Positions 25,610 through 28,734 of a stretch of DNA of 64,000 nucleotides are shown here, one piece after another (position 1 is the first letter of the stretch; each line of letters begins with the position of its first letter). Source of the stretch: Hyphomicrobiaceae bacterium. GTDB taxonomy: Bacteria; Pseudomonadota; Alphaproteobacteria; Rhizobiales; Hyphomicrobiaceae. The notes beneath the pieces are model-generated. The model did no database searches and was not told where the DNA came from. It saw only the letters and a program-made list of their open reading frames with translations. The stretch spans positions 1 to 64,000 of the forward strand of contig JAJFHG010000064.1 in assembly GCA_021775735.1 (NCBI GenBank), read 5' to 3'. The position numbers and the translations under genes are program-made.

Positions 25610-25986
25610 ACCGGTCGCCTCACATCACACGTGTTGTTTGGTGAATCTTATTGCGCCTGAATTAGCGCGTTTTGGAGCGCTTTGCCAAGGGTGGCCCAAC
25701 GGCGGTGCACTTTCGATATGGACTTCAAGGATATTTATCGACCGTCGACCCGCCTTTTCTGGCTTCAGCTTGGATCAACTGACCTGCTCCCATGACCTTT
25801 ATGCTGCTTAAAAAGCTTTTTTTTCCAACAGGCGGTTGGCAAAACAAACGCGTAAACAAGTACTTAGATGAACGCTGTTTGTGAAAATTGGCGACTCGCA
25901 TTACGCCGTTGTGCGAAAAGCGGTCTCATCACCCGTTCTATATGAGGCCAGATTGAAAGCTGACTTTACTCGTGGGGGCACGTGCA
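25610..25986. other. Intergenic region with no gene found
   Basis: This 377-bp gap separates the divergent fba and outer-membrane barrel genes. It must hold promoters for both but I cannot place them with confidence. The only marked feature is a self-complementary AAAAAGCTTTTT near 25810-25821, followed by more T. Confidence 0.35.
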
Positions 25987-26679
25987 ATGGCTGGTAAAAC
26001 TATGATGCACACGGTTGCGCTAAGACTTGCGTCCGTCTGTGTTGCACTCTCGCTGGCTGGGGTTTTGCCCGCAGCGAAAGCGCAGGCGCAAGCGAACGTC
26101 AACAACGGATTTTATTTTGGTATTTTGCTCGCTGGTGTTTTAGCTGAGCAGGATGTCGTGGAAATTTCGGATCCCGGACCACCGCCAACTATTGAGGTGG
26201 GAACGGCTGAATTGGATGCCGTTGGCGGCACATTGGCGATCGGTTTCAGAGCACCCATTGGTGGCAACATCATTGGTGGTATTGAGGGCGATGTCACAGT
26301 TGGTAACTTTGAAGACAATTATGATGGGGACAAATATCACGGCGATTATCTTGCCACCCTGCGCGCCATCTTCGGCATTGAAGTCGGTACCAATACATTT
26401 CTTTATCTGACCGGCGGTATAGCCTTTCTTGACGCCAATTACGTGGGAGATGGGCCAGCACCAGCAATGACAATCGGAGTCGCTGATGAAACGCTCATCG
26501 GTGTTGCTGTTGGCGGTGGTGGAGAATTCAATATCGGTATGGGTGGCGTCAAAATCCGCACCCAGTATCTTTATACCTCGTTTGAGGATTGGAAATTTGT
26601 GAGCAACGGTGAGTACTATGACGTGGAAACAGATGCTCACGTTGCACAGATTGGTTTTGTTGTACCGTTTCCGAACTAA
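25987..26679 (+). CDS. Outer-membrane beta-barrel protein
   Basis: GGGGG 8 bases before ATG 25987 supports this start and a 230-residue product. A signal peptide covers about residues 1-34 (ALRLASVCVALSLAGVLPAAKAQA). The mature part has alternating Gly/aromatic strands such as GIEGDVTVGNFED, YLATLRAIFGIEVG, TFLYLTGGIAFLDANY and VKIRTQYLYTSFEDW, ending with HVAQIGFVVPFPN. The pattern fits the OmpA-like / Omp25-type porin family common in Hyphomicrobiales. Ligands or pore function are not visible. A bidirectional terminator follows. Confidence 0.85.
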   Translation: MAGKTMMHTVALRLASVCVALSLAGVLPAAKAQAQANVNNGFYFGILLAGVLAEQDVVEISDPGPPPTIEVGTAELDAVGGTLAIGFRAPIGGNIIGGIEGDVTVGNFEDNYDGDKYHGDYLATLRAIFGIEVGTNTFLYLTGGIAFLDANYVGDGPAPAMTIGVADETLIGVAVGGGGEFNIGMGGVKIRTQYLYTSFEDWKFVSNGEYYDVETDAHVAQIGFVVPFPN

Positions 26680-26704: not shown

Positions 26705-26739
26705 GCTGCGCAGGTCAATGGACCAAGCGCAGCTTTTTT
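26705..26739 (+). terminator. Intrinsic terminator after the barrel gene
   Basis: GCTGCGC (26705-26711) pairs with GCGCAGC (26727-26733), with an inner GGTC/GACC stem, and six T follow. It sits between two convergent genes and may serve both, though the T-run favours the plus strand. Confidence 0.85.
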
Positions 26740-27286
26740 ATTTGGGCTTGCGCGTCAGCATGGTGAACACAGCATCGAATTGGGCCTTGGGGCCAAGACC
26801 TGGCTGGTTGTGGCCCATGGCGTATTGCCCAATTAGAGAGTGGTAGGCAAGGTGCGCGCGTGCGTTGGCTTCCAGGCTTGAAAAGCCAAGCTCCTGGAAT
26901 AGGTTTTCGGTATAGCCAATGCGTCTGCGATCAATAGTTTTGAGCGTATTGGCGACGGTCTTGTCTGTTGTCGCCCAGGCGCGGATGGCGAGTTCAAGTT
27001 TGCCATTTGATTGCAGAACAATTTCGAACAATGCCCGCAGACGTGTCTTCGCATCACCTCCGCGCCGCTCAACCTCATCAATGATGGCGTGGGTGGCTTC
27101 ACGCTTCCAGAGCGACAGCATTGCGGTGAGCAGCGCCTTGCGGTCCTTAAAATGCCAGTAAAAGCTTCCTTTGGTGACTTTGAGCTTTGCGGCAAGCGGT
27201 TCAACACGTACCGCCTCGAGGCCATCGCGGCTCAACGTTTTAAGCCCAGCCAACACCCAGTCATTTTTGTCTAAACGGTTGCTCAT
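26738..27286 (-). CDS. TetR/AcrR-family transcriptional regulator
   Basis: A 182-residue repressor-type protein. The N-terminal helix-turn-helix is clear: GLEAVRVEPLAAKLKVTKGS followed by FYWHFKDRKALLTAML. The C-terminal ligand-binding part is all-helical and matches no specific ligand class. I choose the ATG at 27286; the frame continues upstream into the operator. Two 20-bp palindromes lie between this gene and the divergent membrane-protein gene, one beginning 7 bp from the start codon, so it very probably represses itself and the neighbour. A minus-strand TTGCGC-17-TATGGT promoter would start transcription almost at the ATG, implying a very short leader. Confidence 0.9.
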   Translation of the reverse strand: MSNRLDKNDWVLAGLKTLSRDGLEAVRVEPLAAKLKVTKGSFYWHFKDRKALLTAMLSLWKREATHAIIDEVERRGGDAKTRLRALFEIVLQSNGKLELAIRAWATTDKTVANTLKTIDRRRIGYTENLFQELGFSSLEANARAHLAYHSLIGQYAMGHNQPGLGPKAQFDAVFTMLTRKPK

Positions 27287-27293
27287 TTGCCAA

Positions 27294-27361
27294 ACCATAC
27301 GCAAGCGTATTGACAAGCGCAACCTGTGTTGTTACAACGAGACCATACGCTACCGTATGGT
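27294..27361. promoter_or_regulatory. Paired TetR-type operators around a divergent promoter
   Basis: Site 2 (27342-27361) is a perfect palindrome: arms ACCATACG and CGTATGGT around 4 bases. Site 1 (27294-27313) has the same left arm ACCATACG, the same 4-base gap and the right arm CGTATTGA with two changes. Between them the plus strand has TTGACA (27310-27315), a 17-base spacer and TACAAC (27333-27338), a near-consensus sigma-70 promoter reading towards the small membrane protein gene. Site 2 covers its start point and site 1 overlaps its -35 element. The layout predicts repression of both genes by the TetR protein. Confidence 0.8.
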
Positions 27362-27429
27362 GGGGAGTACTGCGAATAACTACGATGGCGCACAGGCGCC
27401 TTGAATGAGGCATTGAGGTGGAGGATCAC

Positions 27430-27810
27430 ATGAACGAACTAGCTTTGACACTTGCTGCGTTTTTGTTGTTTGGCACGGGGATTGTGCATTCTGTGCTGGG
27501 TGAACGCAGGTTAATCGGCCCCCTGCTCACACCAGAGAAACGCTCAGGTCTTCTCGAGAACAGCAAATTTGCACGCCAGGTTTTGCGCTTTGCCTGGCAC
27601 TTAACGACCTTGACCCTGTGGGGCTTCGCCGCCATCCTTTCCGGGCTTGCTGTGTCGCCGCCTGGACAGCAGACCGCGACCACGTTGGCTATTATGGCCA
27701 TGATTTGCTTGTTGTGCGCGGTTTATATCTTTGTCACCTCCGGCGCGCGTCATCTGGCCTGGCCAGTTTTTCTGGTGGCTGCCGGCCTTTGTGTGGTGCC
27801 GCTGGTGTGA
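27430..27810 (+). CDS. Small integral membrane protein controlled by the adjacent TetR regulator (predicted)
   Basis: GGAGGA 5-6 bases before the ATG at 27430 is a strong ribosome-binding site, giving 126 residues. Four hydrophobic segments are visible (LALTLAAFLLFGTGIVHSVLG; WHLTTLTLWGFAAILSGLAV; TTLAIMAMICLLCAVYIFVT; LAWPVFLVAAGLCVVPLV). The first loop has a basic GERRLIGPLL and LLENSKFARQVLRF. I do not recognise a named family. A TetR-controlled small membrane protein may belong to a stress or efflux response, which is inference only. Its last 61 bp overlap the end of the convergent DUF6644 gene. Confidence 0.8.
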   Translation: MNELALTLAAFLLFGTGIVHSVLGERRLIGPLLTPEKRSGLLENSKFARQVLRFAWHLTTLTLWGFAAILSGLAVSPPGQQTATTLAIMAMICLLCAVYIFVTSGARHLAWPVFLVAAGLCVVPLV

Positions 27811-28337
27811 GGTGAGATCGCAGGCGCTATCTCTTCAAGTTCTGGTTCAGGAACATAGGCGATCATGCGGCCCGCCGTGATGATCGCCATCCACAGCATG
27901 ATGGAGAAAATCGCGAGCGTTTTTACCGATTTCGGAGGTGCCGTTTGACGATCCCAGTCTTTGAGGTGTGGAAAGACCTGCCGTTGAAACCAGAAAACGC
28001 TCAAGGCTGTGATGCAAAGAAGAGCGACCTTGATTTGAAAGGCGAGGTTCAGCCCGAACGTCACGGAGTCGGATAAAAAGAGCAGGATGCCGCTGATCAA
28101 ATTGATCAGAAAACCAAACCAAACCCATGGCAGGATGTGGTGCGCCAAGTTAAGTAACGACAGATCTCGATGGACGCCAAGCAACCTGAGGTCAAAAACA
28201 AACATGCCGCCGAAAACAAGGCCAAGCCCAAACATGTGGAATGTTTCGAGTATTGGATACGCCCAGGTGGATGAGCGCACAAAGTCGGAAATCGCCAAAG
28301 CCTCAAGCGTTTTGAGCAGCCAGATATAATCCATCAC
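27750..28337 (-). CDS. DUF6644-type membrane protein
   Basis: A 195-residue protein with about five transmembrane segments (YPILETFHMFGLGLVFGGMFV; WVWFGFLINLISGILLFLS; LAFQIKVALLCITALSVFWF; TLAIFSIMLWMAIITAGRMIAYV). The His/Arg-bearing segments (ETFHMFGLG, AHHILPW) resemble heme-binding membrane proteins, but no cofactor is proven. It follows the DUF6152 gene by 4 bp on the same strand; the DUF6152-DUF6644 pair recurs in other proteobacteria. The C-terminal 35 residues (ISPHTSGTTQRPAATRKTG) are polar and lie in the 61-bp overlap with the convergent gene. Start is GTG 28337 (AAGG 7 bases upstream) or ATG 28334. Confidence 0.82.
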   Translation of the reverse strand: MMDYIWLLKTLEALAISDFVRSSTWAYPILETFHMFGLGLVFGGMFVFDLRLLGVHRDLSLLNLAHHILPWVWFGFLINLISGILLFLSDSVTFGLNLAFQIKVALLCITALSVFWFQRQVFPHLKDWDRQTAPPKSVKTLAIFSIMLWMAIITAGRMIAYVPEPELEEIAPAISPHTSGTTQRPAATRKTGQAR

Positions 28338-28341
28338 ATGA

Positions 28342-28734
28342 TTACCTTGGTGAACGACGCATCATGATCGTTTTGCCACCGACAAAGCTGATCAAGCGCA
28401 TGCCAAGTGACGCGCCGCCAGATCGCGCGCGCCAGCCACTCACGCGGACCTTGCGCCCTGACTTTAGTCTGGCGGCGGTCAAGCCTCTGGACCGTGCTTT
28501 CGGGATGCTTTCAGTTTCGACCCGCCACGTGCCGCCACTGGTTTGTACAGAAAAGAAAATATGCGGGTTCTTGTAGCTGACAGAGGTGATCACACCGGAA
28601 ATTGTCACTGGTTTTTTGGGATTATATTTTGTGACGTAGCTGTGATGGGCATCGCTCGTGCCAAGTTGTGCAAAGCCAATCACCACACAACTGCTCATAA
28701 TAGCTGCTGATAAAACGATAAAACGCGAGACCAT
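28342..28734 (-). CDS. DUF6152 exported protein
   Basis: A 130-residue protein with a signal peptide (FIVLSAAIMSSCVVIGFAQ). The characteristic AHHSYVTKYNPKKPVTISGV is followed by ITSVSYKNPHIFFSV, and a small beta-rich domain ends in RKVRVSGWRARSGGASLGMR. The HH near the mature N-terminus could bind metal. Family function is unknown. It forms a tight unit with the DUF6644 membrane protein, suggesting a periplasmic partner of that protein. Confidence 0.85.
   Translation of the reverse strand: MVSRFIVLSAAIMSSCVVIGFAQLGTSDAHHSYVTKYNPKKPVTISGVITSVSYKNPHIFFSVQTSGGTWRVETESIPKARSRGLTAARLKSGRKVRVSGWRARSGGASLGMRLISFVGGKTIMMRRSPR

Follow-up and report, generated by a model that had tools for sequence, protein, structure and literature searches.

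As listed in Table 1, the window (the whole 64,000-nt stretch of DNA that was analysed) contains a TetR-family repressor gene, tetR, and a gene for a small membrane protein, mem, which are divergently oriented and separated by 143 bp. Two operators, op1 and op2, are located inside this gap, the edge of op1 being 7 bp off the tetR start codon. The mem frame begins with the ATG at 27430 behind a GGAGG sequence (27420-27424), and its structure model has four long helices, in agreement with the four-helix protein of 126 residues described in the original prediction. The regulator was also correctly recognised, as TetR matches PF00440, the N-terminal TetR_N helix-turn-helix family (E 1.7e-9; 37.7 bits against a cut-off of 24). 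Among the NCBIfam equivalog models the best match of TetR was 35.5 bits for a cut-off of 265, which gives no subfamily of known function. Two further genes, named DUF6152 and DUF6644 from the letters of the DNA, matched these Pfam families with E values of 4e-14 and 1e-7, respectively. The pair ends inside mem as had been noted, with the DUF6644 frame antisense to the last 61 bp of mem.

Table 1. Features of the tetR-mem locus and its neighbours. Positions are those of the window.
Feature	Position	Strand	Basis or remark
tetR, TetR-family repressor gene, 182 aa	26738..27286	-	PF00440; recognition helix VTKGSFYWHF with K39
op1, operator with one half running into the -35, CCATACGCAAGCGTATTGACA	27294..27313	.	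differs from the perfect site by 2 mismatches
-35 hexamer TTGACA of the mem promoter, overlapping op1	27310..27315	+	direct reading; TTGAC in 11/11 paired loci
-10 hexamer TACAAC, 17-bp spacer	27333..27338	+	direct reading
op2, perfect-arm operator ACCATACGCTACCGTATGGT, immediately 3' of the -10	27342..27361	.	0 mismatches
mem, 126-aa four-helix membrane protein; HSxLGE, RFAWH and RHLAWPVF motifs	27430..27810	+	ORF, alignment, model
DUF6644 membrane protein, neighbour outside the switch	27750..28337	-	PF20349, E 1.1e-7
DUF6152 protein, neighbour outside the switch	28342..28734	-	PF19649, E 4.1e-14

The two operators are of the type ACCATACG-N4-CGTATGGT and bracket the mem promoter, op1 lying over the -35 and op2 just past the -10. 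The site op2 had been called a perfect 20-bp palindrome. This is true of its 8-bp arms, whereas the four central bases, CTAC, fall short of full self-complementarity. The near copy that had been seen beside it is op1, which matches ACCATACGN4CGTATGGT with 2 mismatches where op2 matches exactly. When the window was shuffled with its dinucleotides preserved, 1 of 100 shuffles gave at least two matches at up to 3 mismatches. The promoter TTGACA-17-TACAAC could be read directly at the place predicted for it. A generic promoter scan did not include it in its list, and the -10 hexamer TACAAC is weak by eye, weaker than the -35; the case for the promoter therefore rests on the conserved TTGAC.

A motif search for the regulon, which the original prediction had proposed, was run on the draft genome (3.17 Mb in 76 contigs, 96.7% complete). 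Six places were found at up to 3 mismatches. Those outside the locus, four in number, all had 3 mismatches, so that op1 and op2 were the only sites with 2 mismatches or fewer in the draft genome, and no wider regulon was detected in it. Since the remaining sites all have 3 mismatches, the op1/op2 pair looks like a private, local switch.

Searches for mem relatives covered 150 genomes of the order (7 matched, E 0.001), 385 of the class (8 matched, E 1e-8) and 103 of the family (3 matched, E 1e-8), the query genome being included in each sample. A pattern-limited scan of the genome_contigs collection gave 12 loci, and a search of plasmids gave 1 record. The gene is sporadic among the genomes searched, which suggests horizontal transfer or repeated loss. 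Both genes were found at 11 loci, namely the window (L005), L006, L007, L008, L042, L043 and L054-L058, some of them near copies; L043/L056 and L057/L058 form close pairs on the TetR tree. L053 was left out of the count because a contig end cuts its mem gene. tetR is divergent to mem in all 11, and the TetR proteins of the ten other loci are 41-57% identical to that of the window. The palindromes had been expected upstream of orthologous regulators, and both sites are present in 11/11 tetR-mem pairs. In every pair op1 reads CCATACN6GTATTGAC, where the right arm has become the -35, and op2 reads CCATACGN4CGTATGG; one of the pairs is on a plasmid of Methylocystis sp. MJC1 (L054). In the left arm of op1, base 7 is T and not G in L006 and L043. 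The start-to-start spacing of op1 and op2 is 46-48 bp in nine of the paired loci and 41 bp in two. No pair of op1/op2-type sites was found in the fetched DNA of 16 loci with a distant mem and no match to the window tetR (L009-L011, L044-L052 and L059-L062; seven with a flank of ~1.5 kb only), where a looser operator pattern gave a single match, in L045, far from mem.

Regulator and operator were compared at 50 listed TetR loci, 39 of which had a readable symmetric site, NNATACX...X'GTATNN; 11 loci were dropped because the site was unreadable (L020, L021, L027, L030, L033, L034, L035, L037, L039, L040 and L041). The pattern demands the complement of base 7 and thus passes over asymmetric sites, op1 of L006 and L043 among them; these two loci enter the count by op2. 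TetR proteins with Lys at residue 39 (K39) had CCATACG in 29/29 loci and those with Arg (R39) had CCATACA in 10/10, giving 39/39 concordant loci, several of which are near copies. L066 and L068, found later and outside this count, also have Lys with G. On a TetR tree made with residue 39 masked, the best tree has 4 switches and the well supported branches force at least 2; because the switches are few, a sign test on independent pairs cannot reach significance. In an alignment with PDB sequences K39 falls on a Gln of tetracycline-repressor-type proteins, a residue that touches the operator in those proteins.

The Arg version of the site was also used as a query. Among 199 order genomes, CCATACAN4TGTATTGAC occurred in 7, at one place each, and the reversed pattern in none. 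Every one of these places is next to an R39 TetR, with a gene of the mem superfamily (defined below) opposite; in one case this gene is a fragment of 45 residues where the contig ends. The TetR search had already turned up three of the seven genomes. The four new ones sit among the ten Arg loci, so this search and the covariation overlap. The class sample had the pattern in 0 of 385 genomes and hence gives no data on the residue-39 rule. The pairing of residue 39 with base 7 thus gives one lineage of TetR proteins a simple rule of specificity that can be tested. Neither the CCATACGN4CGTATGG operator nor the K39/R39 pairing was found among the titles and abstract openings listed in the literature searches.

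Two loci depart from this scheme. In L031 (1956-2060) a TetR with the helix KGGFYRRF stands beside TGATACG...CGTATCA sites, the outer bases differing together with helix residues, and a second specificity switch is possible. In L018 (1962-2060) an R39 TetR stands beside 17-bp sites with three centre bases instead of four, which suggests an altered half-site spacing.

A search with TetR only (E 1e-10) found relatives in 47 of 150 order genomes and gave 30 loci. Four were tetR-mem loci already counted, and 15 of the 26 others had a readable symmetric site. Nine of the 15 sites face a small membrane protein (L016, L022-L026, L028, L029 and L038) and six face other genes. The gene in L016 (919-1317) encodes a protein of the LIC_13387 family (NF047765; 53.9 bits against a cut-off of 33), a family that could be tied to the same TetR switch through this locus.

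The op1 pattern CCATACGN4CGTATTGAC was found at 19 places in 17 of 385 class genomes, with 0 for the reversed-pattern control. At 14 of the 19 places a divergent TetR with TKGSFYWHF lies on the left, and 12 of these 14 have op2 at up to 1 mismatch, L074 and L079 being the exceptions. Five of the 14 targets are mem genes with HSxLGE (the window and four already counted); the others are two LHVxGG relatives (L072, L073), a small membrane protein without Pfam match (L065), a DUF3995 protein (L079), glyoxalase-superfamily-like genes (L074, L075) and AMP-binding enzymes (L076-L078). For L065, L074, L076, L078 and L079 these labels come from a Pfam scan, for L075 and L077 from inspection by eye. In L066 and L068 a K39 TetR gene is co-oriented with a UbiD gene (by eye in L068) and lies upstream of it. 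Because unrelated genes are among the targets too (glyoxalase-superfamily, AMP-binding, DUF3995 and UbiD), the operator does not point to one function. L074-L078 give a hint that the TetR lineage senses aromatic or acyl compounds.

The last three op1 places, L067, L080 and L081, had no TetR relative in 1.5-kb flanks and adjoin UbiD-like and molybdopterin-dehydrogenase FAD-subunit genes. These three places agree with a reading in which another regulator uses the palindromes, or they arose by chance, and tetR only happens to be adjacent; TetR genes are common, and divergence from an unrelated gene is frequent among them. We consider this very improbable because residue 39 and operator base 7 covary, in 39/39 loci, and the shuffle control (1/100) and the reversed-pattern control (0) speak against it as well. 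Returning to TetR as the regulator of its own locus, the sites and the covariation point to a palindromic operator at the divergent promoter of tetR itself, by which the TetR family is recognised. That TetR binds both operators and controls mem has strong indirect evidence in these comparisons, and the switch appears well supported as a real, recurrent module of repressor, operator and target.

Exact op1-type sites at UbiD or molybdopterin-dehydrogenase FAD-subunit genes (L066-L068, L080 and L081) were all in genomes of the family f155, with a co-oriented TetR in L066 and L068 only; a trans-acting regulon is possible there.

The pairing was also followed on the TetR tree, which has two large groups with weak support for the split between them (57/82) and a midpoint root placed for drawing. 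One group, with 25 of the 39 rows, faces a mem-superfamily gene in 25/25. Fourteen of these 25 rows were reached through TetR or operator searches, without a search for mem, and a mem-superfamily gene lies across such operators in them. Membership was judged by eye from motifs for L023, L082, L084, L085, L086 and the L028 fragment, and from alignments or a tblastn match to mem for the remaining members.

Synteny of all four genes in relatives had been suggested as a check. tetR and mem with their operators are kept in 11/11 loci, but the DUF pair is present in 0 of the 10 other paired loci within the fetched flanks (~1.5 kb in seven loci, 4 kb in two and 0.66 kb beyond mem in L054). A search of 60 family genomes gave DUF6644 relatives in 16. 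DUF6152 lies beside DUF6644 in 11/11 fetched loci besides that of the window, and mem is absent from 10 of these 11; the lone DUF-pair locus with mem, L090, was taken as the same stretch as L053. The DUF6152-DUF6644 pair was rejected as part of the switch, since it is absent from the fetched flanks of the other paired loci and stands without mem in most of the related genomes examined. The DUF6644 frame has 195 aa in the window versus 162 aa in L053, the nearest relative, where the last 33 codons (27750-27851, ~19 of them antisense to the end of mem) are absent and an extra 286-aa frame lies at the DUF6644/mem junction. The tail is perhaps the scar of an insertion or deletion between DUF6644 and mem. 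At 25972-26679 the window encodes a predicted secreted protein of 235 aa, which is outer-membrane-barrel-like by eye and had no Pfam or NCBIfam match at E 1.

An alignment of 12 mem members, made up of the window protein and those of all but one of the 12 loci from the genome_contigs scan, has H20, E25, R53, W56, H57, R107, H108 and W111 invariant in 12/12. The model of mem has a mean pLDDT of 92.2 and a pTM of 0.76. The Lys+Arg bias is +3 to +7 in 12/12 members and favours, as a prediction, loops 1 and 3 inside, so the conserved polar residues would lie towards the cytoplasmic face. The original prediction had stated that the family of mem is not known, and no Pfam or NCBIfam family above cut-off was found; Pfam and NCBIfam scans of the window mem and Pfam scans of the 12 members gave sub-cut-off matches only. 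A PDB sequence search with the mem profile matched 0 of 177635 sequences at E 10. With the mem model, Foldseek gave 104 matches at E 10 and 0 at E 0.001, these being middling helical-bundle matches, and VIA-align gave Z values up to 8.1, a range that the tool calls common for helical bundles.

Two other sets of proteins resemble mem over most of the length in profile comparisons made from thin alignments, an HGxLGE set (two sequences, 71% identical; probability 97.4%, E 1e-11) and an LHVxGG set (six sequences; probability 82.9%, E 9e-6). In a wider mixed set of 12, which takes in the L016 LIC_13387 protein without demonstrated kinship to mem, H20, W56 and W111 are invariant. It may be that the HSxLGE, HGxLGE and LHVxGG proteins belong to a single superfamily, not described so far, of four-helix membrane proteins that are inducible, have an ancient association with one TetR lineage using a K39/R39 code and perform a membrane biochemistry absent from solved structures. 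We put this forward tentatively, as a proposal with the odds somewhat against it. The mem superfamily gains a likely regulator, operator and promoter, and knowing what induces the switch would be a direct pointer to what the protein does.

Other families were compared with mem. LIC_13387 (NF047765) and DUF3995 (PF13160) proteins are, like mem, small membrane proteins at the same operators (L016 and L079). However, the LIC_13387 model matches the L016 target and not mem, and for DUF3995 there was no PF13160 match and no profile similarity to mem (hhalign 0.3% against three DUF3995 proteins, two of them confirmed as PF13160). No similarity was found between DUF3995 and the LHVxGG set either.

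As for its role, mem could be a small proton-coupled multidrug exporter like EmrE and the SMR family, induced by its substrate through TetR. SMR transporters have four helices, about 110-126 aa and a charged residue in helix 1, and mem shares its size and four helices with them, has E25 and H20 in helix 1 and adjoins a TetR gene. Some SMRs have a dual topology with a Lys/Arg bias near zero, in contrast to mem, whose bias would imply one fixed topology. Moreover, mem lacks an SMR profile match (no SMR family was among the Pfam matches of the 12 members at E 1), and the LHVxGG branch has a residue other than Glu where mem has E25. We consider an SMR-like exporter unlikely.

Our first guess, though rated a little short of even odds, is that mem is an enzyme or a ligand-binding protein embedded in the membrane, with a His/Arg/Glu/Trp site that faces the cytoplasm, and that it acts on a lipophilic or aromatic compound which is also the inducer. 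The eight residues invariant in 12/12 lie towards one membrane face by their helix positions, H20, W56 and W111 persist in the wider set, and the genes that regulator relatives face include UbiD, AMP-binding and glyoxalase-superfamily ones. Against it, no convincing fold match was obtained, and L082, outside both 12-member sets, is without the W56-H57 pair by eye, where others have WQ, WN or WT.

Divergent repressor switches of the TetR/QacR type combine an N-terminal TetR helix-turn-helix with palindromic operators over divergent promoters and a membrane-protein target. The switch studied here has the same parts, and its regulatory logic is ordinary; it differs in that op1 is fused with the -35 and the target family has no name. 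The gene pairing, the two operators, their placement and the specificity read from covariation are documented by sequence evidence, and from them we infer TetR binding, repression, autorepression and release by an inducer. A TetR dimer would bind op1, where it covers the -35 as well as the stretch immediately preceding the tetR start codon, and would also bind op2 at the -10/start region. With both operators filled, RNA polymerase would be excluded and mem would be off, and tetR would probably repress itself through op1. A small, probably hydrophobic effector would bind TetR and release it, which would turn mem on. The product would be a four-helix inner-membrane protein with N and C termini predicted outside and with H20, E25, R53, H57, R107 and H108, along with W56 and W111, towards the cytoplasmic ends of helices 1, 2 and 4. 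By conjecture, it would most likely bind, move or modify the inducer, or deal with membrane damage from it. Repression at op1 and op2, release by an effector and action of mem on the inducer or its damage are together the best explanation of the locus, with a probability of about 0.8.

GFA-type genes were seen near mem-superfamily genes in L044 (4361-4702), L023 (15-362), L024 (3145-3492) and L050 (2554-3060). Such genes occurred in 4 of 100 loci, two of which are near copies; as the 100 loci overlap and many have short flanks, a partnership stays a weak lead. PF04828 was confirmed for two in L044, where the position is directly downstream of mem.
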